Source: Ignavibacteria bacterium
GTDB taxonomy: Bacteria > Bacteroidota > Ignavibacteria > Ignavibacteriales > SURF-24
Length of the DNA stretch: 64,000 nt
Reading direction: 5' to 3'
Assembly: GCA_025612245.1 (NCBI GenBank)
Contig: JAAXKQ010000011.1
Location: 62,001 to 126,000, forward strand
The notes beneath the pieces were generated by a model that saw only the letters and a list, made by a program, of their open reading frames with translations, searched no databases and was not told the DNA's origin. Below, in pieces: positions 5,945 through 24,396 of this stretch (the stretch's first letter is position 1; every line of letters begins with the position of its first letter). A program made the translations under genes and the position numbers.

Positions 5945-7039
5945 TTAAACCTCTTGTAATATGTCTGTTAAAATATCAATACCGGTTTTAATTACGGAGT
6001 CATCCGGCAGGAACATGGGTGTATGAAGACCGTATTTGTTATCCCTCAAAGTTCCGAGCCAGAACATAAAAGAAGGGTAGAGCTGAGAGAAGAAACCAAA
6101 GTCCTCACCGGTCATTTTATATCCGCAATCCACAAATTTATGATTTTTTGAGAGCTTTTCAGAGAGTTTTCTGAAAAGTTCTTCATCTACAATAACTTCT
6201 TTATAGAGAGAGCCGTTTTCAATTGAATATTCAATTCCCGTTTTTTTCTTTACATACTCAAGCTTTGAGACAATTTTATCAAAGAACTGTTCGTTTTTTC
6301 TGCTGTTGAGGGCTCTTATTGTACATTCGGCCCTGGTAACTGATGGGATTATGTTCCTGGCAGTACCGGAAATAACTTTCCCGTAGCCGAAGATTATCTT
6401 TTCGTCTGAATGCCTGAGCTCTTGCTGAATTTCATCCAGGAACATCCTGAATGCATCAAAGGAGTGAATCCCGTTTTCCGGGAATGCCACGTGGGCGCTT
6501 TTGCCATGGATGCTGATGTCAAGCTCGTAGGCTGAAGCAAACAGAACGCCTGAAGTTGAGGCTACAGTTCCCAGCGGGTATTCATCAGTTACATGAAGCG
6601 CAAAGGCTTTCTTTATATCAAAGCTTTCAAGAATGCCGGATTCAATTACCTTCCTGGCCCCGCCTCCTCCTTCCTCACCCGGCTGAAAGAGGAAAACCAT
6701 GTTCCTTTGGGGCTTTATTTGTGCGACATGCCTGATAAAGCCGTAGAGAATTGAAGCATGCACATCGTGTCCGCATGCGTGCATATTATTGTTCTTTGAT
6801 GAAAACTCCACCCCGGTCTCCTCCTTAATTGGAAGAGCATCAATGTCTGCTCTGAACAAAAGGTAATCACCGCCGTTAACCGTGTACTCAATGACCAGAC
6901 CCGTTTCCATAGGCCGGTGGATTACTAAGCCATCTAGCTCCTCCAGATTCCTCTTCAGTATATTCGTCGTTTCAAACTCATGAAACAACAACTCCGGATT
7001 CTGGTGCAGGGTATGGCGCATTTCAATGGGCGTTAACAT
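5945..7039 (-). CDS. M20 family amidohydrolase, probable N-acetyl-diaminopimelate deacetylase
   Basis: 364 aa; RHTLHQNPEL, MHACGHDVHASILYG, FQPGEEGGGGARKVIESG motifs; located in a DAP cluster with dapH. Confidence 0.8.
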   Translation of the reverse strand: MLTPIEMRHTLHQNPELLFHEFETTNILKRNLEELDGLVIHRPMETGLVIEYTVNGGDYLLFRADIDALPIKEETGVEFSSKNNNMHACGHDVHASILYGFIRHVAQIKPQRNMVFLFQPGEEGGGGARKVIESGILESFDIKKAFALHVTDEYPLGTVASTSGVLFASAYELDISIHGKSAHVAFPENGIHSFDAFRMFLDEIQQELRHSDEKIIFGYGKVISGTARNIIPSVTRAECTIRALNSRKNEQFFDKIVSKLEYVKKKTGIEYSIENGSLYKEVIVDEELFRKLSEKLSKNHKFVDCGYKMTGEDFGFFSQLYPSFMFWLGTLRDNKYGLHTPMFLPDDSVIKTGIDILTDILQEV

Positions 7040-7114
7040 TTACCGTGTCCTTTATAATACTAATTCCAGTTTCTAATGGTGCTGTTACTTAATCTCTTAC
7101 AGTTTTAGCCTTTT

Positions 7115-8311
7115 CTACAGGTTAAACTCTTTTACCAGGGCTTCTACTGCGGAATTTTTGTACTGTTCTGCTATGAGGCAGGAAATAGCAATTTCCGAAG
7201 TGGTTACAAGCTTTATTGGAACGTTCTGAAGAGCCTTAAAGAAACTTGAGGCTACACCTATACCGGAGCGCATTCCGATTCCAACTATGGATACCTTTAC
7301 GTATCCCGTATGATACTCCACATTCCAGTCCTTCAGGTCGGAGAGCACCTTACTCAATGCCGCCTGGAGGTGTTTTTTCTTGCTTTCAACTATAGTAAAA
7401 GAAACAACCAGATCTGATTCCGAATTTATGATTGAAATCATGTCTACGTTTAACCCTTCTGTAGCAACTTTTTCAAATATCCTTCTTACCAGGGAATAAT
7501 CCACCGGCAGGTGTTTTATGAATACCTGTGTCTGGTTCTCCATCAGGCTGCAACCTGTAACGACAGGCTGTTCAATTATGATATTTTCATCAGCCACAAA
7601 ACTACCCTCCTCATCTGAAAAAGTCGATCCGCAATAAATTTTGATCCCAAACTTTTTTGCAATTTCAACTGACCTGCTATGGAGTACCTTTGCCCCGAGG
7701 CTTGCCATTTCGAGCATTTCGTCGTAGGAAATGTACTTTATTTTTTTTGCATTTGGATGCAGCCTTGGATCAACCGTATAAATTCCCGCCACGTCGCTAT
7801 AGATCTCGCAATCCACTCCAAGAGCCGCTGCAAGTGCCACAGCCGAGGTATCCGAGCCGCCGCGCCCGAGCGTGGTAACCTCACCTTCCTCGGTTATGCC
7901 CTGGAAGCCGGTTACGACGAGCGCGTCCAGCTCCTGCATCATGTCAATTATCTTTTTTTTGTCGAAGCTTACTATTTTTGCTTCATTATATCTTGCCGTA
8001 GTCTTAATTCCGGCCTGAAAACCGTTCAGGGATTTGCTTTTTATTCCCTTGCTCTGAAGCGCCATGGCTACCAGGGAGGCTGAAACCTGTTCCCCCGTGG
8101 TAAGGAGCATATCGAGCTCCCTTGGGTCAGGGGTGCTTGCAACCTCGCGGGCCAGCCTTATCAGGTTATCCGTGCTTTTACCCATTGCAGAAACGACGAG
8201 TATTACCTTGCCTCCCGCCTTTACTTTTCCGGCTATCTTTTCTGCAATCCTCAGTATTTTTTCAGAACTTGCAACCGAACTTCCGCCATATTTCTGAACG
8301 GTTATCTCCAC
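7115..8311 (-). CDS. lysC: Aspartate kinase
   Basis: 398 aa; VQKYGGSSVASSEKI, GFQGITEEGEVTTLGRGGSDTSAVALAAAL, C-terminal ACT domains. Confidence 0.95.
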   Translation of the reverse strand: MEITVQKYGGSSVASSEKILRIAEKIAGKVKAGGKVILVVSAMGKSTDNLIRLAREVASTPDPRELDMLLTTGEQVSASLVAMALQSKGIKSKSLNGFQAGIKTTARYNEAKIVSFDKKKIIDMMQELDALVVTGFQGITEEGEVTTLGRGGSDTSAVALAAALGVDCEIYSDVAGIYTVDPRLHPNAKKIKYISYDEMLEMASLGAKVLHSRSVEIAKKFGIKIYCGSTFSDEEGSFVADENIIIEQPVVTGCSLMENQTQVFIKHLPVDYSLVRRIFEKVATEGLNVDMISIINSESDLVVSFTIVESKKKHLQAALSKVLSDLKDWNVEYHTGYVKVSIVGIGMRSGIGVASSFFKALQNVPIKLVTTSEIAISCLIAEQYKNSAVEALVKEFNL

Positions 8312-8321
8312 GCTAATATCT

Positions 8322-9020
8322 TTATAGGTTTCTCAAAGCATCAATCAAAAGGGTTTTGGATTTTGTCTTCTCATCCACTTTTTTTACTACCCTTGCCGGG
8401 ATGCCCGCTACGACTGAGTTTTCCTCCACGTCGGAAATTACAACCGAGCCTGCCGCAACGACGGCTCCACGGCCAACTCTTACGCCTTCGAGCACTACCG
8501 CGTTGGCGCCGATTACGACGTTGTCTTCTATAATGACGGGGCTGGCGTTCGGGGGTTCTATTACACCCGCTATTACGCTCCCGGCCCCGATGTGGCAGTC
8601 TTTTCCAATAATGGCTCTTCCGCCAACGACGGTATTCATATCAATCATTGTACGTTCACCAATGACAGCCCCGATATTGATTACGGCGCCCATCATTATG
8701 ACGCAGTTATCCCCGATTTCAACCATGTCCCTTATTATGGCACCCGGCTCTATCCTCGCGTTATATTTCCTCAGGTCGGCAAGCGGTATTGCCGAATTCC
8801 GCCTGTCGGCTTCAATTCTTAAGCTTTTAATGTGGCTCTTGTTTTTGTCATAAAAGCCTTCAAAAGAATCGTATTCGCAGATCATTACGCCGAAATCTTT
8901 TCCCCCTACAAACTCTAAGCCCGTAAAGTCAATTTTATCCAGCTCTCCTGCGATAAAAACCTTCAGCGGGGTTACTTTCCGTGAAGAGGCTATAAAATTA
9001 ATTATTTCGTATGAATCCAT
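8322..9020 (-). CDS. dapH: 2,3,4,5-tetrahydropyridine-2,6-dicarboxylate N-acetyltransferase
   Basis: 232 aa; left-handed beta-helix hexapeptide repeats, [51 protein letters not shown] typical of DapH. Confidence 0.9.
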
Positions 9021-9034
9021 TTTAAGGGTCTTTC

Positions 9035-9700
9035 TTAATTATTTTGAAAAAGAACGTCCTTGAAACTGTAAAGGCCAAACTCCTTCTGCACAATGAAATT
9101 CACGGCCTTTAGAACCCCTTCGGCAAAAGTCCTGCGGCTTGTGGCGCTGTGGGTTAACGTCAGCACCTCTCCAAGCCCTCCGAAAGAGACCGAGTGTTCA
9201 CCTGCAATGTTTCCGATCCTCAAGGAATGAATGCCGACGTCTTTGCCAATGGCATTTCTTAACATCAGTGCCGTTCCCGAAGGTTTATCTTTCTTGAACC
9301 TGTGGTGGGTCTCTGTAATTTCAATATCCCAGTCAGCGAGATTGTCACTTAAAAACTCCACGCATTTTAAGAGCATCTGTATGCCGACTGAATAGTTATA
9401 GCTCAACACTGCCGGAATTTTCTGGCTGACCTCATTTATCATGCTGAGCTGCTCATCTGTATAGCCCGTAGTGCCTATTACAAGGGGGCTATTCATTTCA
9501 CGCGCCAGATGCAGCGTTTTCTCCAGTGTCTCGGGGGAGGAGAAATCTATTAAAACTTCAGGAGTCCCTTCCTGCCAAAGCCCGCTTTTATCGTATTTTA
9601 ACACGGCTTTGTTTCCGGCCTCTTGCATTAAGCTTTCGATTTCAAGGCCCATTCTTCCCGAGGCTCCAACAAGGCCGTACTTAATCATTCTCATTTTCAC
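9035..9700 (-). CDS. dapB: 4-hydroxy-tetrahydrodipicolinate reductase (short form)
   Basis: 221 aa; [34 protein letters not shown] motifs. Confidence 0.92.
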
Positions 9701-9740
9701 CCTCTTTATTATTAGGCCATGTAAGGCTAAAAAAAGTTAT

Positions 9741-10607
9741 TTAGCGGCTAATAGACTTCATCAGAATATCCGAGGTCTTTTCCGTAGCCTTAGTCAGCGG
9801 CAGCCGCAGGACATTTTTGCAGTAGCCCAAAAGGCTCAGGGCGAACTTAACCGGAATCGGGTTTGTTTCAATAAACAGGTCGTTCATTATTTTTAGGTAT
9901 TTTGCGTTAATTTCACGTGCCAGTGCCCAGTCACCCTTAAATATTGCATCCGTAATGCTTACCATTACCCCTGGAAAAACGTTCGAAAATACGGATATGA
10001 CCCCATTGCCTCCCAGAGCCATTATAGGGATGGTCTGGTCGTCATTGCCCGAGAATACCAGGAAATCCTCCGGCTTCATTGCCATGAGTCTGGCGATCTG
10101 TGAAATATCCCCGCTGGCTTCCTTTACGCCTATTACGTTTGGACAAACCTCATGAATTTTAAGTACCGTCTCGGGCAGCAGGTTCATTGAGGTCCTGCTT
10201 GGGACGTTATAGATTAAAATTGGCAGGTTCGTCCTTTCGGCAATATACCTGTAATGTTCAACAAGCCCTGCCTGCGTCCCTTTATTATAATAAGGGTTTA
10301 CAATCAGCAGTCCGTCGGCCTTAAAGTCTTCCGCTATTTTATTGTTCTCTACAACTTTCTTTGTATCGTTAGTGCCCGTACCTATAATGACGGGTACCTG
10401 CCTGTCTACTTCAACGATAACTGTCTCTACAATCTTTCTTCTTTCCTCATCGTCAATTGTTGCAGCCTCTCCGGTTGTTCCCAGCACAACCAGTGAGTTG
10501 ATGCCGCCTTCGAGCTGAAAGCGGATGAGTTTCTTGAGAGCTTGGTAATCAACTTCAAACGACTCCTCAAAAGGCGTAATCAGGGCTGTCCCGGTTCCTT
10601 TGAACAT
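9741..10607 (-). CDS. dapA: 4-hydroxy-tetrahydrodipicolinate synthase
   Basis: 288 aa; GTGTALITPF, VVLGTTGEAATI, YNVPSRTSMNL, GVKEASGD motifs. Confidence 0.95.
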   Translation of the reverse strand: MFKGTGTALITPFEESFEVDYQALKKLIRFQLEGGINSLVVLGTTGEAATIDDEERRKIVETVIVEVDRQVPVIIGTGTNDTKKVVENNKIAEDFKADGLLIVNPYYNKGTQAGLVEHYRYIAERTNLPILIYNVPSRTSMNLLPETVLKIHEVCPNVIGVKEASGDISQIARLMAMKPEDFLVFSGNDDQTIPIMALGGNGVISVFSNVFPGVMVSITDAIFKGDWALAREINAKYLKIMNDLFIETNPIPVKFALSLLGYCKNVLRLPLTKATEKTSDILMKSISR

Positions 10608-12051: not shown

Positions 12052-12765
12052 ATGAACCTTGCAATCCTGGCTGCTGGCGAGAGCTCGCGCCTTAAGGCAG
12101 AGGGGCTGAAAGTTCCAAAGCCGTTAATAACCATCAATGGGGAAACCATAATTGAAAGAATCATAAGGCTCGGCCTTCAGAATGGGGCGGCTTCCATATA
12201 CTGCATTATAAATGAAGAGGAGCTCCTGCTGCGGGAATTTTTCATCTCTGGTGACTTCGAGGTGCCGGTAAAGCTCGTCATCAGGACTACCGAGAGCTCG
12301 ATGCACAGCCTTTTTAGCCTGGCTCCTTATCTTACTGATGAGCCTTTTCTCCTGACAACCTGCGATTCGGTCTTTGACGCGCTGGAATTCAGGAATTTTG
12401 TCTCTTCCGTTAAAAACAGCACGGGAATCCAGGGTACGCTTGCCGTGACTCAATATATCGACGATGAAAAACCCTTGTGTGTCAAAATGGATTCCGGGAA
12501 TAAAATTACCGCCTTCAGCGATCGGCAGGAGGGCTACCTTTGGGCTACAGGCGGAATCTACTATTTCTCGCCTGAGATATTTGAAATGATTAAGGCGGCG
12601 CATGAGCTGAAGATTTCCCGCCTGAGAAATTTCCTGAGGCTTCTTTTAAGTAACGGCTACAGCCTGAAGGGTTTTCCATTCTCCAAGATAATTGACGTGG
12701 ATCACCTGAAAGACATAAAGGCTGCCGAAGAATACCTCTGTCCTTCTGAAAAGCCGGGGGCTTAA
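12052..12765 (+). CDS. NTP-transferase family nucleotidyltransferase (sugar/polyol-phosphate nucleotidylyltransferase-like)
   Basis: 237 aa; AILAAGESSRLK...KPLITINGETIIERII signature; TTCDSVFD metal-binding region. Confidence 0.85.
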   Translation: MNLAILAAGESSRLKAEGLKVPKPLITINGETIIERIIRLGLQNGAASIYCIINEEELLLREFFISGDFEVPVKLVIRTTESSMHSLFSLAPYLTDEPFLLTTCDSVFDALEFRNFVSSVKNSTGIQGTLAVTQYIDDEKPLCVKMDSGNKITAFSDRQEGYLWATGGIYYFSPEIFEMIKAAHELKISRLRNFLRLLLSNGYSLKGFPFSKIIDVDHLKDIKAAEEYLCPSEKPGA

Positions 12766-12886
12766 ATTCAATTTTAACAGTCTCTATTGATATAATAACA
12801 AAAAATCGGTATATAATTTATTAGGCAATGAAGCCTGAGCTTAGTTCTTAGAAATACCTTCCTTAAAAACAGTGGAGAGCCAGGAT

Positions 12887-13720
12887 ATGAAGTTAAAATT
12901 TGCAGGCATCCGGCGGAAAACAGAATTTTCTCCGAATCACGAAGTAAATGACCTTGCAATTATTAATTGCACGGCCGAGAACTTAATAAAGCTGGGAGCA
13001 GATGTTAGAATATATGATGAAGACACAATTAGCCCGGAGCTCATAAAGGAAGACCTTATATTTTCCATGGTTCAGGGCCCGAAGGGAATTCAGGAACTCT
13101 TCAGGATTTCAGAACGCGGTTCCATGATAATCAATTCCCCGGCGAGTGTCTATTCGTGCTACCGCTTTAACATGCTTAAGATGCTCTCGGGCGGGGGAAT
13201 TCCTACTCCCAAAAGTATCCTGACCTCTACGGAAATAAGCCTCAACGGCCAGATAAATGAATTCAGCTCGGAAAGGCTCTGGGTTAAAAGGGGGGACGTG
13301 CATGCCGTTAGAAAAGAAGACGTTATCTCCGTCCCGGCTGAGCGCAGTGAGATAACAAGCACGCTTGAGGAATTCCACAAGAGAAAAATCGACAGGGTCA
13401 TTCTCCAGGAAGACATCCCCGGGGATACCGTTAAATTTTACGCCGTCAGGGAAACGGGATTTTTTTACTGGTACTATCTATCCAATGCTTTCAGCAACTG
13501 CTTTACAGAAAACGCCCTAAGGCAGCTGGCCGAAACTTCGGCCGAAATCCTCGGGCTTTATATCTACGGCGGTGATGCAATCATAATGAGTGACGGATCT
13601 ATTATTGTCATAGATATCAACGACTGGCCGAGCTTTGCTCCTATAAGGGAAGAAGCCGGCTATCATATCTCCAATTTATTATTAGCCAAAGGGAGGGAAT
13701 TTGTTAACAGCAGACTTTAA
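12887..13720 (+). CDS. ATP-grasp superfamily protein
   Basis: ORF 12872..13720; ATG at 12887 with GGAG upstream; central VKRGDVHA lysine region and C-terminal VIDINDWPSF (DxNxxP-like) motif. Confidence 0.7.
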   Translation: MKLKFAGIRRKTEFSPNHEVNDLAIINCTAENLIKLGADVRIYDEDTISPELIKEDLIFSMVQGPKGIQELFRISERGSMIINSPASVYSCYRFNMLKMLSGGGIPTPKSILTSTEISLNGQINEFSSERLWVKRGDVHAVRKEDVISVPAERSEITSTLEEFHKRKIDRVILQEDIPGDTVKFYAVRETGFFYWYYLSNAFSNCFTENALRQLAETSAEILGLYIYGGDAIIMSDGSIIVIDINDWPSFAPIREEAGYHISNLLLAKGREFVNSRL

Positions 13721-15059
13721 GCGCAAATACGCTTCCATGAAAACAGAGGTGCCCGGGCCAAAATCAAAAGAACTCTTCGAGTTTGAACAAAAACATATCT
13801 CGCCGGGTATCCAGACTATCGCCACTTCTTCCAAAATTGCTGTTGAGAAAGGGGAGGGGGCAGTAATTGAAGACGTGGACGGAAACAGGTATATCGACTT
13901 TTTTGCCGGGGTCGGTGTGGCAAGCCTTGGCTACAACCACCCGAAATACGTTAAAATGATGCAGGAGCAGGTCTCAAAAATCCACGTCGGGAGCTTTACT
14001 TCCAGGAACAGGGCCGGGCTTTCACAGCTCCTTTCTGAAGTGGCCGTAGGTGACCTCAGGCGTACGCAGTACTATAGCAGCGGTGCCGAAGCCGTTGAGG
14101 CGGCTTTGAGGCTTGCCAAGTCCTATACCGGCAAGTCGGAATTCATCGGCTTCTGGGAAGGATTTCACGGCAAGACGCTCGGGGTACTGGGACTCCTGGG
14201 GGATAATTTCAAGCACGGTCTGGGGCCCCTTCCTTTCGGCAGGTATCTTACTCCTTATGCAAACTGCAGGCATTGTCCTTTCGGGCGCACATTCCCGGAG
14301 TGTGATTTTATGTGTGTGGATTTCATAAAGAAAAAAATAAGGTACGAAACTACAAACGACGTTGCGGCAATTGTTGTTGAGCCCATTCAGGGTACGGCAG
14401 GAAATGTGGTCCCCCCGGAAGGCTTCCTCCTGAGGCTGAGGCAGCTTGCAGATGAAATTAAGGCCGTTCTTATTGTTGATGAAATGATTACCGGCTTCGG
14501 CAGGACAGGAAAGATGTTCGGCTACCAGCACGATAACGTGGTGCCGGATATTATTACGGTAGGCAAGGGGTTCGGGGGCGGATTCCCGATGACGGGACTT
14601 ATGTCGAGGGATGAGATTATATTTTCAAAACCTTTTGCAAACCCCAGCGGTAGCTCTTCGAGCTACGGGGGGAACCCCCTGGCCTCGGCATCCGCATACG
14701 TCACGCTTAAGACGATAATTGAAGAAGGACTGGTTGAAAATTCCGCGCGCGTGGGGGCTTTCATGCTCGAAAAACTGAAAACATTCAAGGAAAAGTTCCC
14801 GTTTGTCGGTGAAGTGCGCGGGCGCGGACTAATGATCGGAATGGAGCTCGTCAAATCACCCGGTTCCATGGAAAAGCTGGATAAAAAATATACACAGATG
14901 ATTTTCCGGGAATGCCTGAACAAAGGACTGATTGTAATGGGCTACAACCCGGACGTAAGAATCAATCCGCCGCTCATAATAAATGAGGAAATTGCCGAAG
15001 AGGGTATTGAAATAATGGAGGAAGCCTTTAAGAATGTCGCAGATAGAATTGTCGTATAA
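13701..15059 (+). CDS. Class III PLP-dependent aminotransferase
   Basis: 452 aa, TTG start with GGAGG upstream; YYSSGAEAVEAALRLAK, VDEMITGFGRTGKMF, ITVGKGFGGGFPMTGL (PLP Lys); overlaps the preceding gene. Confidence 0.92.
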   Translation: MLTADFKRKYASMKTEVPGPKSKELFEFEQKHISPGIQTIATSSKIAVEKGEGAVIEDVDGNRYIDFFAGVGVASLGYNHPKYVKMMQEQVSKIHVGSFTSRNRAGLSQLLSEVAVGDLRRTQYYSSGAEAVEAALRLAKSYTGKSEFIGFWEGFHGKTLGVLGLLGDNFKHGLGPLPFGRYLTPYANCRHCPFGRTFPECDFMCVDFIKKKIRYETTNDVAAIVVEPIQGTAGNVVPPEGFLLRLRQLADEIKAVLIVDEMITGFGRTGKMFGYQHDNVVPDIITVGKGFGGGFPMTGLMSRDEIIFSKPFANPSGSSSSYGGNPLASASAYVTLKTIIEEGLVENSARVGAFMLEKLKTFKEKFPFVGEVRGRGLMIGMELVKSPGSMEKLDKKYTQMIFRECLNKGLIVMGYNPDVRINPPLIINEEIAEEGIEIMEEAFKNVADRIVV

Positions 15060-15960
15060 AACAAGGGACGTTGAAGAGTTCCTGGACGTTTATTTTTACC
15101 GCCCCTTTGGATTTCTGATTGCAAAGGCATGCTGGAGGCTTGGCATTAAGCCTAATGCAATTACCACTATGGGCATGGTAATTGGCGTTGCAGGGGGACA
15201 CCTGCTATTTTATAACAATCACTGGCTGAACCTTTACGGCATTCTTCTTATTATACTGAACGAGGCCTTCGACAGCGCCGACGGGCAGCTTGCAAGGCTT
15301 TCCGGAATTCACTCCAGGTACGGGCGGATTTTTGACGGCTTTGCGGGCAACACGGTCTTCCTGAGCATCTATATCCACCTGTGTCTGAGATACATTTATT
15401 CAGGCGGATCGTGGTGGGTGTTCCTCCTTGCAGTCATTTCCGGCATATGCCACTCATACCAGAGTGCAATGGCCGATTACTACAGGAACGGGTACCTGCA
15501 CTTCGTGGTCTCGGTCAAAAAAGGGGAGCTGGATAAACATAAGGAAGTCCTGAGGAGATTCAGGAGCCTGAGCTGGAAGAAAGATTTTCCCGGGAAATTC
15601 CTCCTGATGTTCTATGTCAACTATACGCGCCAGCAGGAGAGCCTTTCAGGAAACTTCCAGAAGCTCTTCAGCCGCAGCGCCGAAGTCTTTCAGGATAGTA
15701 TCCCCGAGGGATTTAAGAACACGTATAAGGAATATAATAAGCCACTGCTCAAGTACTATAACATACTTACGACCAATACAAGGCAGATCTGGCTGTTTAT
15801 TGTTGTGCTCCTGGATAAACCAATCTTCTACTTTTTCTTTGAGCTTACGCTTCTGAACATACTTCTTGCCTGGGTTACAATAAAACAGGAACATCTCAAT
15901 AAAAAGCTTCTTCTGAGGCTTGAGGATTTCAGGTCGGCTAAAATTAGGGTGGAGAAATAA
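15034..15960 (+). CDS. CDP-alcohol phosphatidyltransferase family membrane protein
   Basis: 308 aa; DSADGQLARLSGIHSRYGRIFDGFAG corresponds to D-x2-DG-x2-AR-x8-G-x3-D with the last Asp altered; multiple TM segments; ATG overlaps the upstream gene. Confidence 0.85.
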   Translation: MSQIELSYKTRDVEEFLDVYFYRPFGFLIAKACWRLGIKPNAITTMGMVIGVAGGHLLFYNNHWLNLYGILLIILNEAFDSADGQLARLSGIHSRYGRIFDGFAGNTVFLSIYIHLCLRYIYSGGSWWVFLLAVISGICHSYQSAMADYYRNGYLHFVVSVKKGELDKHKEVLRRFRSLSWKKDFPGKFLLMFYVNYTRQQESLSGNFQKLFSRSAEVFQDSIPEGFKNTYKEYNKPLLKYYNILTTNTRQIWLFIVVLLDKPIFYFFFELTLLNILLAWVTIKQEHLNKKLLLRLEDFRSAKIRVEK

Positions 15961-15961
15961 T

Positions 15962-16969
15962 TTGCTTAAGGGAGCGATAATAGGGATGGGCAAAATAGCC
16001 CAGGAAGCCCATATTCCTGCTTTTCTTGACCGCCAGGTCTTTAGGGATGCAAAAATCATTGCAGCCGTGGATGAGAATGGCCGGATGCTAAATCTTGTGC
16101 GCTCAAAGTATCCTGAAATCAGGTGCTACAGTTCGGTTGATGAGATGTTTGAACGCGAGGATCTGGACTTTATCGATATCTGCACTCCGCCGGGAACTCA
16201 CGCGCACATGATTGAAGAGGGGCTTAAAAGGGGAGTCCACATAATATGCGAAAAGCCCTTTGTCCTTGGCGCCTTTGATGCCGAGAGGCTCTACCCTTCA
16301 ATTGCCGGGTATCAGAAGGTCTTTATGCCTGTCCACCAGTACAAGTATTCTCCCCTATGGAAAGCCTTTAAGGAGGAGGCTTCAAGAGGAACATCGGGTA
16401 AAAACTTCATACAGTTTAATGTGTTCAGAACTGAGGCCGATAGAGGAATTGCTTCTTTAAATAAAGGCTGGCGTACAGATCCTGAACTTAGTGGCGGCGG
16501 AATTTTATCCGACACAGGGGTGCATTACCTATATTTGTCGCTATGGATGCTTGGAGAGGTTAGGAGTATTACGGCAAGAGCGTTTTCCATTTCCCACACC
16601 GAGTACAGCGTTGAAGATACGGCGCTTGTGGTTCTGGAGTCTGAATACGGAGTTGCACAGATCAGCCTTACCTGGGGCGCGGACAGGAGGCATAACAGTG
16701 CCTGTCTTGTAAACAGCCGGAGCAGCCTTGTTTATAACGGCTCCGAACTGATAAGAAACTTTTTGAGCCAAAGCGAAAGGATTCCTGTCCCCGATGCTTC
16801 GGATAAAAAAAACTATATTTCGCTCTACGTCTCATTAGTGCGGGACTTTTTAGGTCAGGTCAACTCCGGCCTTAAGGATAACTGCCGTCTGGATGAGGCG
16901 TACAAAAGCATTAAGCTGTTGGATTCGTGCTACAGGGCAGCAGTAACAAACCGGACAATTACTTTTTAA
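15962..16969 (+). CDS. Gfo/Idh/MocA family oxidoreductase
   Basis: Track ORF 15920..16969; likely TTG start at 15962 with GGAG upstream; GAIIGMGKIAQEAHIPAF Rossmann, CEKPF motif, GGGILSDTGVHYL. Confidence 0.9.
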   Translation: MLKGAIIGMGKIAQEAHIPAFLDRQVFRDAKIIAAVDENGRMLNLVRSKYPEIRCYSSVDEMFEREDLDFIDICTPPGTHAHMIEEGLKRGVHIICEKPFVLGAFDAERLYPSIAGYQKVFMPVHQYKYSPLWKAFKEEASRGTSGKNFIQFNVFRTEADRGIASLNKGWRTDPELSGGGILSDTGVHYLYLSLWMLGEVRSITARAFSISHTEYSVEDTALVVLESEYGVAQISLTWGADRRHNSACLVNSRSSLVYNGSELIRNFLSQSERIPVPDASDKKNYISLYVSLVRDFLGQVNSGLKDNCRLDEAYKSIKLLDSCYRAAVTNRTITF

Positions 16970-17991
16970 TGCAGAAGAAATTATTTCCCATATTGTATGT
17001 CGTCGGCATTGCCATTTTTGCCCTTCTTATCTGGGACTTCGGAATTGACAAGATCATGGTCAATATAAGAAAGACAGGCTGGTGGTTCCTGCCCGTTATT
17101 GCACTCTGGGGAGTTATATACCTGATCAATGCTTACGGATGGCATATTATACTGGGCGAGGACAGAAGCAAGGTTGCATTCTGGAGGATATACGGCATAA
17201 GCCTTGGAGGCTTTGCAATAAACTACTTAACCCCGTTTGTCAACCTCGGGGGTGAACCCTACAGGATTTACGCCCTGAAGGAATTTACCGGAATCACCAA
17301 ATCGGTTTCTTCTGTCACTCTTTACAGGATGCTGCACATTATATCGCACCTGATCTTCTGGCTTACTGTAATACCTGTAACCTTCTTTGTTATTCCGGTA
17401 AGTTTTAACTTTGCAGCGGCTTTAATGGCACTGTTCCTGGTAATTTTCTTAATGCTGGCTTTTGTTTTTACGCGTCATAGGCTTGGAATATATGAGGCTT
17501 TGTCGAAGATTATTCTGCACCTTAAATTCTTGAAGTTCTTAAATAAAAAGCTCGAAAAAAATAAAAATAACATCGCAGAGATCGACCGGCAGATAAAGGA
17601 CCTTTACGTCAACAGGAAAAGGACGTTCTATACCGTTCTTTCACTTGAGTTTTTTGCGCGCATACTGGCAGCAATGGAGTTTTTCTTCATTTTTCGTTCC
17701 ATCGGTATAGACATCTCCGTCTTTCAGGCTCTCTATATTCACGGGGCTTCATCGCTTTTTCTTAACATCCTGTTCTTCATGCCGATGGAGTTCGGGACCA
17801 GGGAAGGAAGTCTTTACATTACCTTAAAGGCTTTCATCCCGGATGCCGGTGTTGGAATCTATATCGCCCTTGTTAACCGCATCCGGGAACTATTCTGGAT
17901 ACTGATAGGCATGCTGCTCATACAGTTTAACAACAGGAAATTAAAGAAAGAAAACGCCATTTATTTGCGAAAAAGCAGGATTACTTCATGA
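16969..17991 (+). CDS. Lysylphosphatidylglycerol synthase TM region / UPF0104 flippase-like integral membrane protein
   Basis: Track ORF starts 16927; likely ATG at 16969 overlapping the upstream stop (TAATG); many TM helices, LTPFVNLGGEPYRIYAL and MPMEFGTREGSLYITLK resembling LPG_synthase_TM. Confidence 0.8.
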   Translation: MQKKLFPILYVVGIAIFALLIWDFGIDKIMVNIRKTGWWFLPVIALWGVIYLINAYGWHIILGEDRSKVAFWRIYGISLGGFAINYLTPFVNLGGEPYRIYALKEFTGITKSVSSVTLYRMLHIISHLIFWLTVIPVTFFVIPVSFNFAAALMALFLVIFLMLAFVFTRHRLGIYEALSKIILHLKFLKFLNKKLEKNKNNIAEIDRQIKDLYVNRKRTFYTVLSLEFFARILAAMEFFFIFRSIGIDISVFQALYIHGASSLFLNILFFMPMEFGTREGSLYITLKAFIPDAGVGIYIALVNRIRELFWILIGMLLIQFNNRKLKKENAIYLRKSRITS

Positions 17992-18731
17992 AAGCGATAA
18001 TATTTGATTTTGGCGGCACACTCGATTTGGATGGAATTCACTGGAGCATAAAGTTTTTTGATGCTTACTGCAGGGCTGGGCTTTATGTTCCGGAGAGGGT
18101 CTTCAGAAATGCTTTTATTCTCTCTGAAAGGGATATGAAAGGACAGCTCAGCGTAAATGCAGGATTTCAGGAGACTCTCTTTAAGCAGGTCTATTTTCAG
18201 CTAAGGCACCTGATGGAGGATTATAACTTAAGATTCTTTGATGAGCCGGCCAGGATTGCAGAAAAGATTTCCTATGAGTGTTACATGGATGTGAAAAAGA
18301 ACGTAAGTGATACACGTGAAATCCTTTCACGCTTGTCTGAAAACTATGTGCTTGGCCTCATTTCGAACTTTTACGGCAACCTTAAAAGTGTGATGGAAGA
18401 GCTGGAACTGGACGAATTCTTTTCCGTTAAAATGGATTCAGAGCAAACGGGCTTAAGAAAGCCCGACCCTAAGGCCTACCTTTACCTCTTAGACAGGCTT
18501 TCATTTACGCCGGAGGAGCTCGTAATGGTTGGCGACTCCTATAATAACGACATTCTGCCTTCGAAGAATCTGGGCTTAAATACCATCTGGCTTAAGTCCG
18601 GGAGCTGGGACTGCCCTGAGGATTATTCAAAGGCGGATTTTCTTATTGGCAGTTTAACTGAAGTGGAAGATACGGTATCAGTAATGGAAAGGATGAATTA
18701 CCGCAAAAGACTATTATCTTGCCTGAAGTAA
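17988..18731 (+). CDS. HAD superfamily hydrolase
   Basis: 247 aa; IFDFGGTLDLDG, LGLISNF, GLRKPDPKAY, VMVGDSYNNDILPSKNLGLNTIWL; ATGA overlap with the upstream gene. Confidence 0.88.
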   Translation: MKAIIFDFGGTLDLDGIHWSIKFFDAYCRAGLYVPERVFRNAFILSERDMKGQLSVNAGFQETLFKQVYFQLRHLMEDYNLRFFDEPARIAEKISYECYMDVKKNVSDTREILSRLSENYVLGLISNFYGNLKSVMEELELDEFFSVKMDSEQTGLRKPDPKAYLYLLDRLSFTPEELVMVGDSYNNDILPSKNLGLNTIWLKSGSWDCPEDYSKADFLIGSLTEVEDTVSVMERMNYRKRLLSCLK

Positions 18732-18793: not shown

Positions 18794-19612
18794 TTATTTT
18801 GAATACAGCTCCGCAGCTTTCTCTGCCGAAGAAGTAATGCCTTTGATGAGGGCCGAGCTGAAACCGTTGTGTTCCATCTGGTTTAAGCCCGCAATTGTGC
18901 AGCCCTGTGGAGTTGTAACCTTGTCTACCTCTTTTTCAGGATGGCTGCCAAGGTTAACAAGAAGCGACGCCGCGCCTTTTGCCGTCTGGGCTGCCATTAA
19001 AAGGGCGTCTTCGGCGTGGAACCCGATTTCTATTCCTCCCTGTGAAGCCGCGCGTATGGCTCTCAGGAAAAATGCAATCCCGCAGGCGCAAAGTGCGGTT
19101 GCAGGAACCATCAGTGATTCGTCTATTACGAGTACTTTACCGACAGATTCAAATATTCTTTTTGCCAGTTCAAGGCCGCCTTTGCCGGCCTCATCGGTGC
19201 ATATGCACGTCATGGATTCGCGAATGGCAATTGCAGTATTCGGCATGGCCCTGAGAACGGGAATGCTCCTGTTTTCAAGTTTCTTTCTGATGTCTGAAAT
19301 GGAAGCCCCCGAGACCACGGAAATAACCGTGTGCCTTTTTTCGTCCAGGGAGTCCTTTATCTCTGAAAGGAGCCCATCGAGCTGCCGGGGAGTTACGGCA
19401 ATAATTATCACGTCACTTTTACTTACAGCCGAAGCATTGCTTAGGGCTGTAGAGAAACCCTGATCCTCAAAAATCTTCAGGTGTTCTTTGCTGCGCCTTG
19501 TTACGGTAACTTCCACGGCCTCAAATATTCCGGACTTTACGAGTCCGTTTGCTATTGCCGAACCTATATTCCCGCCGCCCAAGACTGCCGCGGTATGTCT
19601 TTTCTCTGCCAT
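18794..19612 (-). CDS. proC: Pyrroline-5-carboxylate reductase
   Basis: 272 aa; AVLGGGNIGSAIANGL; VLRAMPNTAIAIRESMT; C-terminal TTPQGCTIAGL (typical ..TSPGGTT.. region). Confidence 0.92.
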   Translation of the reverse strand: MAEKRHTAAVLGGGNIGSAIANGLVKSGIFEAVEVTVTRRSKEHLKIFEDQGFSTALSNASAVSKSDVIIIAVTPRQLDGLLSEIKDSLDEKRHTVISVVSGASISDIRKKLENRSIPVLRAMPNTAIAIRESMTCICTDEAGKGGLELAKRIFESVGKVLVIDESLMVPATALCACGIAFFLRAIRAASQGGIEIGFHAEDALLMAAQTAKGAASLLVNLGSHPEKEVDKVTTPQGCTIAGLNQMEHNGFSSALIKGITSSAEKAAELYSK

Positions 19613-19804
19613 CTTTAATCCTGATTCTTAAACATGAAAACAATATAATAAAATGTTCCGAAGAATACTCTGACTTGAAAAGGATTTTAAGTGCGTGTGG
19701 AACTGATTGCATTGTTTTTCAGCGCTAATATTTGTTTTTTGAACGTAATATGGGAACCTCTTGCTGACTGGTTTTTGAACATCCTTATTTATAAGGTACT
19801 GCCT

Positions 19805-20365
19805 ATGGTGGAAATACCAAAGTACAGGTCACTGCTGTTTCTGGATGCTATGGATAAAGAGAGTGGCGGCCTGAACGTAATAATAGAAACTCCCAAAGGG
19901 AGCCGGAATAAATTTAAGTATACTCCGGCTCTGGACATCTTCAAGCTCGACAGCACGCTCCAGGCCGGGGCCAGCTTCCCCTTTGACTTCGGATTTATTC
20001 CTTCGACGCTTGGGGAGGATGGCGATCCGCTGGATATACTGGTTCTCATGGACCAGTCGGTCTATACCGGATGCCTGGTGCCGGCAAGATTGATCGGGGT
20101 AATTGAAGCAAAGCAGATGGAGAAGAAGGGAAAGTTCGAGCGTAACGACCGTCTTATAGGAGTATTTGCAAAATCCCACGCCTATAACGACATAAAAAGC
20201 CTCCAGCAGCTGAATAAAAACGTCCTTGAGGAAATTCAGTTCTTCTTTGAAACGTATAACAGGTACAAGGGCCGTGAGTTCAAGCCTCTTGGACAGTACG
20301 GCCCGAAGCAGGCAATGAAATTAGTCAGGCAGGGGATTAAAACTTTTAATGAGAAATACATCTGA
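19805..20365 (+). CDS. ppa: Inorganic pyrophosphatase
   Basis: Track ORF from 19691; homologous region begins at M19805 (MVEIPKYRSLLFLDAMDKE); ETPKGSRNKFKY, FPFDFGFIPSTLGEDGDPLDILVLMD. Confidence 0.9.
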   Translation: MVEIPKYRSLLFLDAMDKESGGLNVIIETPKGSRNKFKYTPALDIFKLDSTLQAGASFPFDFGFIPSTLGEDGDPLDILVLMDQSVYTGCLVPARLIGVIEAKQMEKKGKFERNDRLIGVFAKSHAYNDIKSLQQLNKNVLEEIQFFFETYNRYKGREFKPLGQYGPKQAMKLVRQGIKTFNEKYI

Positions 20366-20395
20366 ATAAAAAATATTAAGTAAAGGAATTTCATA

Positions 20396-20638
20396 ATGGA
20401 AAACGACAATAATTATGTAAATGACCACGGGGATGAGGACCAGGGCGGACGCAGGCCTGACACCAATCCCGGGGAGTTTGAAGGTGAAAACGAGGTAACG
20501 GGCTACGGGCATAAAAGAAGGCCAAAGGATGAAAAAAAATCTGGCAGCGGCCTTGAGGAATATAACGAGAAAGAGCAGGACAAAAAAGACTCTGAGCCGG
20601 ATCCGTTTAATGGACAGGATAACGTGCAAAATGAATAA
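20396..20638 (+). CDS. Small highly charged hydrophilic protein, unknown
   Basis: 80 aa, ATG preceded by AGGAATTTC; followed by a terminator-like stem-loop. Confidence 0.5.
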   Translation: MENDNNYVNDHGDEDQGGRRPDTNPGEFEGENEVTGYGHKRRPKDEKKSGSGLEEYNEKEQDKKDSEPDPFNGQDNVQNE

Positions 20639-20645
20639 AATGACT

Positions 20646-20681
20646 CTGCCGGGGAAGGTGCAGAGACCTTTTCCCGGCAGA
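20646..20681 (+). terminator. Rho-independent-like stem-loop
   Basis: CTGCCGGGGAAGGT ... ACCTTTTCCCGGCAG nearly perfect inverted repeat. Confidence 0.55.
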
Positions 20682-20865
20682 AACTGCTTTTTCTTTCTGC
20701 CCACCTATCCCTTCTAAGGCAAAGAGTCAAGAGTTCCGGGAGAAAATTTTTTTTTTTTATTTTTGATTTTTCAGTCCAAATAAATAACTTCGCTTCTGAA
20801 GAAAATGAAAATGTATGCTCATATCAGAGAGCTGAAAAATAAAATTATAACTGAAGGGAGTAAAA

Positions 20866-21390
20866 TTGAGCGCGGATATTAAAGAATTAAGCAGTGTCGA
20901 TTTCCTGGATAATTACAGGGAGAAAAAGCAAAAAGGTCCCGTAAAGAGGGAATTTGTCCTTTGCGAAGAAATGAAGTTCATGGCGCAGGAGATCATAAGC
21001 GAAGAGAAAATTGACGTGCATCCTGCAAAAATAGAGTACGTAACCATCGAACCGAATATCTCCAAGAGCACGGCTGCAAAATGCGTCAAGACGGGCAAGG
21101 AATTGAAATTTTTCTCGAACCTTGACTATGTGATCGAGGTTTCAGGGGAACTCTGGACAGCCCTTGACAAGGAAACGAGAAGGATACTGCTTGAGCATGA
21201 ATTAAGACACATACTGGTCCTGCAGAACGACAAGACCGGCGACTGGAACTTTAAGCTCAGAAAGCACGATATCCAGGATTTCGGTAGGATTGTCTCAAAG
21301 AACGGCGTCGACTGGATAAAGAAGGTAAGGCTCTGCTTAAGCTCACTTTACGACATGACTCCGGCTGAAGAGGACAACATACAGATGTAA
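20866..21390 (+). CDS. Putative zinc metallopeptidase (phage-type metallopeptidase domain)
   Basis: 174 aa; LLEHELRHILV (HExxH) and downstream RKHDIQDFGRIVSKNG resembling PhageMetallopep (PF18894)-type proteins. Confidence 0.7.
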   Translation: MSADIKELSSVDFLDNYREKKQKGPVKREFVLCEEMKFMAQEIISEEKIDVHPAKIEYVTIEPNISKSTAAKCVKTGKELKFFSNLDYVIEVSGELWTALDKETRRILLEHELRHILVLQNDKTGDWNFKLRKHDIQDFGRIVSKNGVDWIKKVRLCLSSLYDMTPAEEDNIQM

Positions 21391-21416
21391 TTGTCTTAAG
21401 GCTTGATTTTATTTTT

Positions 21417-21453
21417 GGGATACAGAAAAATAAATTCTGTATCCCTTTTTTTT
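21417..21453. terminator. Rho-independent terminator between convergent genes
   Basis: GGGATACAGAA-loop-TTCTGTATCCC followed by T9. Confidence 0.85.
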
Positions 21454-21458
21454 AATTC

Positions 21459-22700
21459 TTAGCGGTAAAGGTAGTACTTCTTTGAAAGTTTCTTGAATGA
21501 GTCTATATCCTTGTCAAGAAACGACTTCAGGTCCTCAAAGCGCATTTTCTCACCGAATATTTTCCTGACCTTGTCTGTTCCGGCCACCTTGTCAAAAAAG
21601 TCGATCCTGTCTTTCTTTGCCATCTCAAACGGGTTTTTGTCGGGATAGAGCTCATTGTTTGCCTGCATCAAAAGGAATTGAAGCGAAAGCAGGTTAACCT
21701 TCTTCATATCCAACAGGTGGATCTGGACGCCGTGAAGTTCTTTTTTCTCATTGGCGCCGTAGAAAGGCTTAAAGGTAATCGGCCTGAAGAGTACCCCTTT
21801 AATGCCATAAGAGTTCATCTTGTCTGCCAGTTTTTTGCCGTCTATCCATTCGGCGGCAAAAGTTTCAAAAGGAATCGTGTAGCCCACGCCTTCTGAAATT
21901 ACGCCAAGCTCACCCAAAACCCCGGTTGTAACATAATATTCAGGCGTATCATTGTGGGGCACGTGCGGACTTGCAGGAACCCATATGAGCCCGGTTTCCT
22001 TAAACGACATGCTGCGCTTCCAGCCTTTCATCGGGACGACCGTGAGCTTGCACTTGATTCCGCCTTTAAGCATTCCTTCGTCGTTAAGCATCCTGGCCAG
22101 TTCGCCGCAGGTAAGTCCGTAAACATAGGGGATCTTGAACTGGCTTACAAAAGAGATAAATCCGTCTTCAACCAGATTTCCTTCCACCTTGAGCCCGGTT
22201 AAGGGATTCGGCCTGTCTAGAACGACAAACTCCTTGTTGTTTTCTGCCGCGGCTTCCATTGCAACACCCATTGTGCTGATGTAAGTATAGGAACGGCATC
22301 CGTTATCCTGTATGTCATAGACCAGCACGTCAATGTCTTTTAACATCTCAGCCGTAGGTTTCCTGGTCTTTCCATAAAGCGAATAAACAGGAAGTTTTGT
22401 CACGGGATCGGTGTAAAAATCCACGTGTTCACCGGCTGCATAGTCGCCTCTTACGCCGTGCTCGGGCCCGTAGAGCGCAACAAGTTTAACACCGGGAGTC
22501 TCAAAAAGTATATCTATAGTAGACTTTAGCTGCTGGTCGACACCGGTAGGATTTGTAATTAAGCCTATTCTTTTACCCTTAAGAACGTCGAAATTTCTTT
22601 CCTTAAGTATATCGATACCTGTTTTAACCTTCATGGCCTGAGCCTTCAGGCCGGAAAAGGCCAACAGTAGAACTGAACACAATAGTACGATTTTTTTCAT
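21459..22700 (-). CDS. DUF1343 / NamZ-type exo-beta-N-acetylmuramidase, secreted
   Basis: 413 aa with signal peptide; GKRIGLITNPTG, YGPEHGVRGDYAAGE, DIDVLVYDIQDNGCRSYTYISTM, LDRPNPLTG. Confidence 0.9.
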   Translation of the reverse strand: MKKIVLLCSVLLLAFSGLKAQAMKVKTGIDILKERNFDVLKGKRIGLITNPTGVDQQLKSTIDILFETPGVKLVALYGPEHGVRGDYAAGEHVDFYTDPVTKLPVYSLYGKTRKPTAEMLKDIDVLVYDIQDNGCRSYTYISTMGVAMEAAAENNKEFVVLDRPNPLTGLKVEGNLVEDGFISFVSQFKIPYVYGLTCGELARMLNDEGMLKGGIKCKLTVVPMKGWKRSMSFKETGLIWVPASPHVPHNDTPEYYVTTGVLGELGVISEGVGYTIPFETFAAEWIDGKKLADKMNSYGIKGVLFRPITFKPFYGANEKKELHGVQIHLLDMKKVNLLSLQFLLMQANNELYPDKNPFEMAKKDRIDFFDKVAGTDKVRKIFGEKMRFEDLKSFLDKDIDSFKKLSKKYYLYR

Positions 22701-23326
22701 TACTTTAACCTTTGAATGATTTTGTCCACGATTGAAGCGCTTTTTGTCTTTACGTCATTACACAGTATTTCAGCGCTTTTTAAGAGTTCTCCGGCAATCG
22801 TCTGATTTTTCAGAGAACTGCAGTTAATTAAAACATTAAGGAATGCTCCCTGTACGGCAGAGGCTAAGAGTAGGGCTGCCACGCCGGCATCGGAAAGCGA
22901 ATTCTGGTTGCCTTTCTCCGCTACCGAATCTATGAGCGGAAGCACGTCATTGCACAACCTTATTACCTCGGAAGGAACTTCCGCTGCCTGGAACGTTGCC
23001 TGGTCAATTTTCTCCACGCGCTGGGCCTTTTCTTCTTCGGTTTCCTTTGGCAGCTTAAAGGCATCCATGACCCTGTCAAAGGCTTCGTTGTCTTTTTGTG
23101 CCAGGAGAATGAACTTTTCCCTGAAGTCTTCCAGGCTTTTTCTTACTTCAAGCATCTCGGCTTCGCTTCCGGCATACTTCTTTTTACCGATTGTAAGATT
23201 GCAGACCATTGTTCCAAGGCCCGAGGCCAGGCTTCCCAAGAAAGCCGATACGTTGCCTCCGCCGGGGGTGGGGGAGTTGGAGGAAAGTTCGTCCAGGTAC
23301 GATCTTATTGACTTCGAGGTATCCAT
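22700..23326 (-). CDS. Cyclodeaminase/cyclohydrolase family protein (formiminotetrahydrofolate cyclodeaminase, FTCD C-terminal type)
   Basis: 208 aa; LSSNSPTPGGGNVSAFLGSLASGLGTMVCNLT; DAGVAALLLASAVQGAFLNVLIN. Confidence 0.9.
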   Translation of the reverse strand: MDTSKSIRSYLDELSSNSPTPGGGNVSAFLGSLASGLGTMVCNLTIGKKKYAGSEAEMLEVRKSLEDFREKFILLAQKDNEAFDRVMDAFKLPKETEEEKAQRVEKIDQATFQAAEVPSEVIRLCNDVLPLIDSVAEKGNQNSLSDAGVAALLLASAVQGAFLNVLINCSSLKNQTIAGELLKSAEILCNDVKTKSASIVDKIIQRLK

Positions 23327-23379
23327 TTTTTCTCCTGTAAATTGTTTGGTTTCTTCAGGCGGTTTACATTCCTGAATAT

Positions 23380-24396
23380 TTATATCATATAATCGATTAT
23401 CTTTTGTTCCGGAATGAAAGGATTAAGCGTCGAAAGACCCAAGCGTTCAGTTGCAATTTCCACCAGCTTTGTCTCATTTGTCTCCTTGTTTTCGCTGTAG
23501 AATCTTCCTGCCATTAAAAGAGCTTCAAGGGGTACAAGTCCTACAATTTCGCTTCCATCCACCTCAAGGCCGAGCCTTTTGGCTTCTTTCTTTACTTCCT
23601 CAAAAGCCAGGTGGATTGGCACAATGGTATAGTTCTTAAGATTCATGGACACCTGTGTAATACCGTATTTCTCAAGATAAACACCCATTGCCTGAACTGT
23701 CTTAAGGCGCCCCGGGATCCTGATTGCCTGTCCGTCAACCTTTACTATGTTCCCGTTTTCATCTCTTTTCGGCTTGCCCGTTTCCCTCAGGACTTCAGAG
23801 ATTTCTTTTGAATGTTTGATATCAGTAGACTTTATGTTTACGTTGTACGCAATAAGGAAGAATCGTGCCCCCGTAACGAGTGCCCCGAGTTTTGTGTTAA
23901 ATTCAGCTTTACCGAAGTCGGGTTCCCAGGAAGGATCTTTCAGCTTTTCCTCGAGGCCTTCATATTCGCCCTTTCGTATGCTGGAAAGCAGTTTTCTCTG
24001 TGGATTGCGGCTGGCTTCTTCATAAAGGTAGACGGGAAGGTTTAATTCTCCGGCAATCCTTTTGCCGAACTCTTCAGAGATCTTTACGCATTCCTCCATC
24101 GAGGTGTTTTTAACAGGAACAAAAGGTACGACGTCTATTGCCCCGATGCGCGGGTGTTCTCCTTTATGCAGGCGCATGTCAATTTCCTCTGCTGCAGCCT
24201 TGCAGGCGGCAATTGTTCCTTCAAGAATTCCGTTTTCATTTCCAGCAAGCGTTACAACAACTCGGTTATAATCCCTGTCCGGCTCCAGGCTTAAGAGCTT
24301 TACCCCCTCAATTTTCTTTACTGCACCGGAAATTGCCTCAAATACGGCCGGGTTTCTGCCTTCACTGAAGTTGGGTACACATTCAATTATTTTCAT
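23380..24396 (-). CDS. Glutamate formimidoyltransferase (FTCD N-terminal type)
   Basis: 338 aa; IIECVPNFSEGRNPAVFEAI, HKGEHPRIGAIDVVPFVPV, GALVTGARFFLIAYNVN. Confidence 0.93.
   Translation of the reverse strand: MKIIECVPNFSEGRNPAVFEAISGAVKKIEGVKLLSLEPDRDYNRVVVTLAGNENGILEGTIAACKAAAEEIDMRLHKGEHPRIGAIDVVPFVPVKNTSMEECVKISEEFGKRIAGELNLPVYLYEEASRNPQRKLLSSIRKGEYEGLEEKLKDPSWEPDFGKAEFNTKLGALVTGARFFLIAYNVNIKSTDIKHSKEISEVLRETGKPKRDENGNIVKVDGQAIRIPGRLKTVQAMGVYLEKYGITQVSMNLKNYTIVPIHLAFEEVKKEAKRLGLEVDGSEIVGLVPLEALLMAGRFYSENKETNETKLVEIATERLGLSTLNPFIPEQKIIDYMI

Follow-up and report, generated by a model that had tools for sequence, protein, structure and literature searches.

A conserved seven-gene operon of an Ignavibacteria bacterium with a probable role in inositol-phosphate lipid synthesis

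A block of seven genes in a 64,000-nucleotide stretch of DNA from an Ignavibacteria bacterium (GenBank assembly GCA_025612245.1, contig JAAXKQ010000011.1, positions 62,001 to 126,000; here called the window) probably makes an inositol-phosphate membrane lipid by way of CDP-inositol. The genes encode, in this order, a nucleoside triphosphate (NTP) transferase, an ATP-grasp enzyme, an aminotransferase, a CDP-alcohol phosphotransferase (CDP-AP), a dehydrogenase, a flippase-like membrane protein and a HAD protein (genes 1 to 7, Table 1). A preliminary description of the window had proposed that a polyol is activated as a CDP-compound, transferred by the CDP-AP, decorated and flipped. This scheme fits all our findings, but two partners had been missed: myo-inositol-1-phosphate synthase (MIPS) and a lipid transporter composed of MlaE, MlaF and MlaD (MlaEFD).

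Our computations show which genes are present, that their order is conserved, that they co-occur with MIPS and with MlaEFD, and to what genes 1, 4 and 5 are related; from this we infer every substrate and product, the amino group, the order of the steps, the flipping and the direction of transport. Sequence, predicted structure and gene association are the basis of every functional statement made here. In the proposed pathway MIPS, encoded elsewhere in the genome, would convert glucose-6-phosphate into inositol monophosphate, from which the gene 1 protein would make CDP-inositol with CTP. The gene 4 protein would move the inositol-phosphate moiety to a lipid alcohol, while the gene 5 protein would oxidise a ring hydroxyl and the gene 3 protein put an amino group in its place, yielding an amino-inositol headgroup. 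The ATP-grasp enzyme would introduce one more substituent, phosphate being likelier than an amino acid, and the HAD protein would trim or transfer phosphate. Finally, the gene 6 protein would flip the lipid across the inner membrane, and the dedicated MlaEFD transporter (an MCE system) would move it between the inner and outer membrane.

Conservation of the block and its association with inositol

Close homologues of the CDP-AP (44-82% identity) were found in 17 of 60 related genomes, several of which carry two copies. At least 14 further loci within the taxonomic order carry the complete set of seven genes in an unchanged arrangement, whereas the genes flanking the block in the window are conserved only in a genome of the same genus (L034). 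Since the gene order recurs while the flanks differ, the block is held together by selection and not by general synteny. The neighbourhood comparison that the preliminary description had suggested as a check thus shows that the genes do co-occur elsewhere. Outside the order, a core of NTP-transferase, ATP-grasp, CDP-AP, flippase-like and HAD genes is present in genomes G227, G272 and G376, and G175 has the core genes without the flippase-like one. A scan of genome contigs with a single CDP-AP protein returned distant relatives only.

The distribution of MIPS coincides with that of the CDP-AP: all 17 genomes with the CDP-AP encode it, and the 43 others do not (Fisher p 2.6e-15); kinship was corrected for at the genus-level count only, where MIPS and the CDP-AP co-occur in 14 of 42 genera. 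In most homologous operons the MIPS gene (PF07994 and PF01658) directly follows gene 7. For the operon in the window it is unlinked and lies on a different contig; in the window's genus MIPS is found at G000:C31 and G001:C12. Among the genomes checked that have the core outside the order, G272, G376 and G175 encode MIPS and only G227 lacks it. There, a PfkB kinase gene (L095:6614-7549) stands directly after the core and is followed by a DUF4833 gene. The best solved relative of this kinase is TM0415 (1vk4, 4.5e-26), which has been shown to phosphorylate myo-inositol (PMC5931981), and a homologous PfkB kinase gene adjoins MIPS in G376. This swap of one inositol-phosphate source for another is strong circumstantial evidence that inositol phosphate is the input of the pathway. 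The co-occurrence and linkage of MIPS, the solved relatives of gene 1 and the replacement of MIPS by a myo-inositol-kinase homologue all point to inositol, which is very probably the polyol.

In 14 loci the genes for the second partner, MlaEFD, separate gene 1 from gene 2; in L042 the three genes match PF02405 (MlaE permease), PF00005 (MlaF-like ATPase) and PF02470 (MlaD MCE-domain protein). Of the 17 operon genomes 15 have the operon-associated clade of MlaE, which is missing from the 43 others; its members, at about 30% identity, are distinct from the general MlaE proteins that these genomes also encode. In the window's genus the transporter genes are unlinked (G000:C14 and G001:C13), their MlaE belonging to this clade, and the gap between genes 1 and 2 of the window's operon does not contain them. 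What sets these copies apart from known Mla/MCE systems is their linkage to, and co-inheritance with, one lipid-synthesis operon; among the papers listed in our literature search, none described an MCE system tied to inositol-lipid synthesis.

Formation and modification of the headgroup

The family profile of gene 1 has as its best solved relative, over nearly the full length, 4jd0 (E 2.3e-12), which PMC12275187 gives as the inositol-1-phosphate cytidylyltransferase of T. maritima. Residues Arg13, Lys23 and Asp105 are invariant in 22 members of the family. Gene 1 is predicted to encode an inositol-1-phosphate cytidylyltransferase, the product being CDP-inositol or a derivative of it.

For gene 4, profile and fold searches both gave AF2299, the PIP synthases and the DIPP synthase as best solved relatives. 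AF2299 was the top structural match of Foldseek, with modest TM-scores (0.48 or below), and the scores for the PIP-synthase families lie below their cutoffs (NF045883, 43 bits vs 170; NF052561, 35 vs 350). We predict that the protein transfers an inositol-phosphate headgroup. The first seven residues of the CDP-AP signature (D1xxD2G1xxAR..G2xxxD3) are invariant across the operon clade, but in the window's protein (DSADGQLAR..GRIFDGFAG) the fourth aspartate (D4) is replaced. The residue at this position is G, S, T or E in the window's protein and the operon clade and is followed by N, D or E, whereas in our alignments D4 is retained in sister CDP-AP families, in the Bacteroides-type clusters L103 and L106 and in AF2299-type enzymes. 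D4 has been described as the likely catalytic base, and its replacement by N in a PIP synthase nearly abolishes activity (PMC4634129). The HAD protein has a deviating motif as well: motif I reads DFGGT (as in the window) or DYGGT in all 22 listed orthologues, without an Asp at +2. Together, the missing D4 and the HAD motif I without its second Asp suggest that the end reactions of the pathway are not the textbook ones. Two close CDP-AP homologues outside the operon context (L096:9237-10250 and L099:9705-10604) keep D4, and the latter lies near an MlaE-like gene (L099:10946-11857). The flippase-like protein of gene 6 has PF03706 as its sole domain, lacking a synthase domain, and is a candidate flippase.

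The aminotransferase of gene 3 belongs to a clade that is restricted to operon genomes; it is 69-90% identical between operons, with Lys289 and Asp260 invariant, and its best PDB relative is 7vno from P. horikoshii. The dehydrogenase of gene 5, in which Lys98, Asp184 and His188 are invariant, has as its nearest PDB matches 1zh8, DgpA and, over the full length, myo-inositol 2-dehydrogenase 3cea. In every operon examined the two genes are either jointly present or jointly absent (p 4e-6), and both are absent in seven loci (L035, L047, L051, L095, L097, L098 and L100). This strict pairing fits a dehydrogenase-transaminase pair, which would possibly yield an amino-inositol. A literature search found no amino-inositol phospholipid in bacteria. 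That the operon represents such a lipid class, undescribed so far, with a CDP-AP that does without the canonical catalytic Asp and an MCE transporter dedicated to that lipid, is a proposal we make with reserve.

The role of the ATP-grasp enzyme can be read in two ways. The gene 2 family is found only in operon genomes, and in all of them except G054, whose contig starts inside gene 3. The gene is kept in operons without genes 3 and 5, so that its function does not depend on the amine these would introduce. Two tandem diverged copies are present in four loci (L044, L046, L048 and L049), which suggests two successive modifications. By profile the protein resembles ITPK, by fold (AlphaFold2 model, pLDDT 92) a ligase, and we regard it as a putative kinase or ligase with the inositol headgroup as its substrate. 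Matches to beta-lactamases were weak and were dismissed as chance.

Tentatively, the enzyme may be an inositol (phosphate) kinase like eukaryotic ITPK, which would make the lipid a ring-phosphorylated bacterial phosphoinositide. In the profile search against solved proteins plant ITPK4 came first (E 4.8e-4), with human ITPK1 also among the top matches (E 1.6e-3), and the alignment with ITPK4 includes the segments QE...KFYV and IIDIN..PSF. The persistence of the gene without the aminotransferase module, implying that the amine is not needed, and the tandem copies agree with a kinase. The profile matches, however, span only some 50 residues, and Foldseek places ligases first (D-Ala-D-Ala ligase, PsnB, LysX and RimK), with no ITPK among the best 50 matches; in a Pfam search of 23 family members RimK matched two and Ins134_P3_kin one, all weakly.

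The fold neighbours and the weak RimK/MptN matches would rather be expected of a carboxylate-amine ligase that adds an amino acid to the headgroup, perhaps one supplied by gene 3 acting as an amino-acid aminotransferase or racemase. The class to which gene 3 belongs does include amino-acid racemases and omega-aminotransferases, and the product would then be an aminoacylated inositol lipid instead of an amino-inositol lipid. We consider this less likely, since the ATP-grasp gene stays where genes 3 and 5 are both missing, and gene 3 is strictly paired with gene 5 and not with gene 2, which again points to a dehydrogenase-transaminase pair.

Several points weigh against an inositol lipid made through CDP-inositol. 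The closest structure of CpgD is also 4JD0, yet this enzyme makes CDP-glycerate (PMC12275187), and other CDP-compounds too are made by NTP-transferases of the gene 1 fold. The transfer by a CDP-AP without D4 may be a non-standard reaction. The best NCBIfam match of gene 5, the iolG model TIGR04380, is far below its cutoff, and class III is not known as the usual type of aminotransferase for inososes. The operon of genome G050 is not accompanied by an MlaE of the operon clade. Finally, our search for biochemistry or lipidomics on the operon clade found none.

Relation to known pathways

In the preliminary description the block was not recognised as a named pathway. The route is indeed experimentally undescribed, but its core of NTP transferase, CDP-AP, HAD and MIPS is that of the "putative alternative inositol lipid cluster" of Bacteroides vulgatus and Prevotella, for which a CDP-inositol (Kennedy-like) route was predicted, not experimentally confirmed there (Heaver et al. 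2022, PMC9246714). A lysylphosphatidylglycerol-synthase-like protein is encoded nearby in that cluster as well, and Bacteroides-type loci with MIPS, CDP-AP and NTP transferase are found at L103 and L106. Genes 1, 4 and 7 supply the NTP transferase, CDP-AP and HAD protein of such a cluster, and MIPS adjoins them in most homologous operons, though not in the window. The complete CDP-AP signature DxxDGxxAR..GxxxDxxxD, however, is broken in gene 4 at D4, and for this reason the operon is best read as an expanded relative or variant of the predicted CDP-inositol cluster and not as a member. It differs further in having the ATP-grasp gene, the aminotransferase/dehydrogenase module and, in most homologues, MlaEFD, and its CDP-AP forms a clade of its own.

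With the PIP-synthase route of B. thetaiotaomicron (BT_1522-1526) and the mycobacteria (PgsA1) the operon shares the supply of inositol phosphate by MIPS and the formation of a phosphodiester by a CDP-AP. That route, in contrast, uses CDP-diacylglycerol without an inositol-phosphate cytidylyltransferase, its phosphatase is PgpA-like and not a HAD protein, and no ATP-grasp, aminotransferase or MCE genes have been described for it. The Caulobacter ceramide diphosphoglycerate pathway (CpgD) likewise has a cytidylyltransferase whose closest structure is the inositol-1-phosphate enzyme, a CDP-activated headgroup and an anionic envelope lipid, but its substrate is a phosphoglycerate, and the accessible part of the source describes no association with MIPS (PMC12275187).

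The di-myo-inositol-phosphate pathway of hyperthermophiles (MIPS, IPCT and DIPPS) shares MIPS, a CTP:inositol-1-phosphate cytidylyltransferase and a CDP-AP with the operon, but its product is a soluble solute and D4 is kept in AF2299-type enzymes. We know of no flippase-like protein, MCE transporter, ATP-grasp enzyme or aminotransferase in this pathway. The preliminary description had allowed for either a lipid or a soluble phosphodiester. The latter would be an amino-inositol derivative or a compatible solute resembling di-myo-inositol-phosphate; the cytidylyltransferase and a DIPPS-like transfer would build it, the HAD protein would dephosphorylate it, and the membrane proteins would be incidental or export it. 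Genes 1 and 4 do both match the IPCT/DIPPS enzyme (NF041135; 4mnd), and DIPPS yields an intermediate that still carries a phosphate, to be removed by a phosphatase such as a HAD protein. However, the scores against NF041135, a model of the fused two-domain enzyme, are 47 and 25 bits for a cutoff of 580, the 25 bits being those of gene 4, which is accordingly no DIPPS equivalog; moreover, the Bacteroides and Prevotella strains with an NTP-transferase/CDP-AP/HAD cluster make inositol lipids (PMC9246714). A lipid is favoured because the MlaEFD lipid transporter is linked and co-inherited, and the LPG_synthase_TM protein of gene 6 points the same way; a soluble product is improbable.

NTP-transferase, aminotransferase and CDP-AP also occur together in the phosphonolipid (CMP-aminoethylphosphonate) route, which we rejected since PEP mutase is absent from the block and the sister CDP-AP clade is separate. 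This sister family (26-30% identity, D4 kept) is found in L053-L058, L031 and L105, likely in phosphonolipid clusters: in L056 it is accompanied by an NTP-transferase, a class I/II aminotransferase and a LysE-type protein, and in L031 it lies near a PEP mutase/NTP-transferase fusion.

Inositol lipids are considered rare in bacteria. If the inositol-lipid reading is right, the operon gives the CDP-inositol route, so far only predicted, a genomic hallmark that is conserved in one more bacterial group. It would add headgroup-modifying enzymes that could yield an amino-inositol lipid. With an MCE transporter tied to one biosynthetic operon, the cargo and direction of Mla-type systems, which are disputed, could be tested directly, and the loss of D4 puts the accepted mechanism of CDP-APs to a natural test.

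Operon layout and neighbouring genes

All seven open reading frames of the preliminary description were found on the plus strand, at the same coordinates or close to them. Six of its family assignments were confirmed by Pfam, and that of gene 2 by structure prediction and Foldseek. The translational coupling it proposed holds for genes 2 to 7, which overlap or abut, but not for genes 1 and 2, which are separated by a gap. For gene 2 we took the ATG at 12887 as the start, which is favoured by the orthologues; a GTG at 12872 is possible.

Table 1. Genes of the operon, positions in the window
Gene	Product	Position	Strand	Basis	Junction with the preceding gene
1	NTP (cytidylyl) transferase	12052..12765	+	PF00483/PF12804 (Pfam)	
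2	ATP-grasp enzyme, new family	12887..13720	+	without Pfam match; fold from predicted structure	gap, 12766 to 12871 or 12886 (~106-121 bp)
3	class III pyridoxal-phosphate (PLP) aminotransferase	13701..15059	+	PF00202 (Aminotran_3), E 2e-94	overlap, start 13701 (or later), gene 2 stop 13720
4	CDP-alcohol phosphotransferase (CDP-AP)	15034..15960	+	PF01066 (CDP-OH_P_transf), E 1e-10	overlap, 15034/15059
5	Gfo/Idh/MocA dehydrogenase, TTG start	15962..16969	+	PF01408/PF22725	abutting, 15960/15962
6	LPG_synthase_TM / HpnL-like membrane protein	16969..17991	+	PF03706, E 1e-32; TIGR03476 HpnL, E 1e-29	overlap at 16969 (TAATG)
7	HAD-IA family protein	17988..18731	+	PF00702/PF13419	overlap, 17988/17991 (ATGA)

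An Rfam search of the window gave no riboswitch or other RNA element, and a promoter scan remained near chance level, promoters giving no support for the operon structure. Both flanks appear to be of a housekeeping type, the names being read from the translations: upstream (5945-10607) lie lysine/diaminopimelate genes on the minus strand, and downstream (18794-24396) ProC-like and pyrophosphatase-like genes. In the window's genome the operon is present a second time, complete but diverged (L042:5194-15659, on G000:C43); this copy includes MIPS and MlaEFD and encodes a CDP-AP 48-49% identical to that of the window. Just upstream of it lies a divergent gene for a sigma-54 activator (L042:15861-18008).

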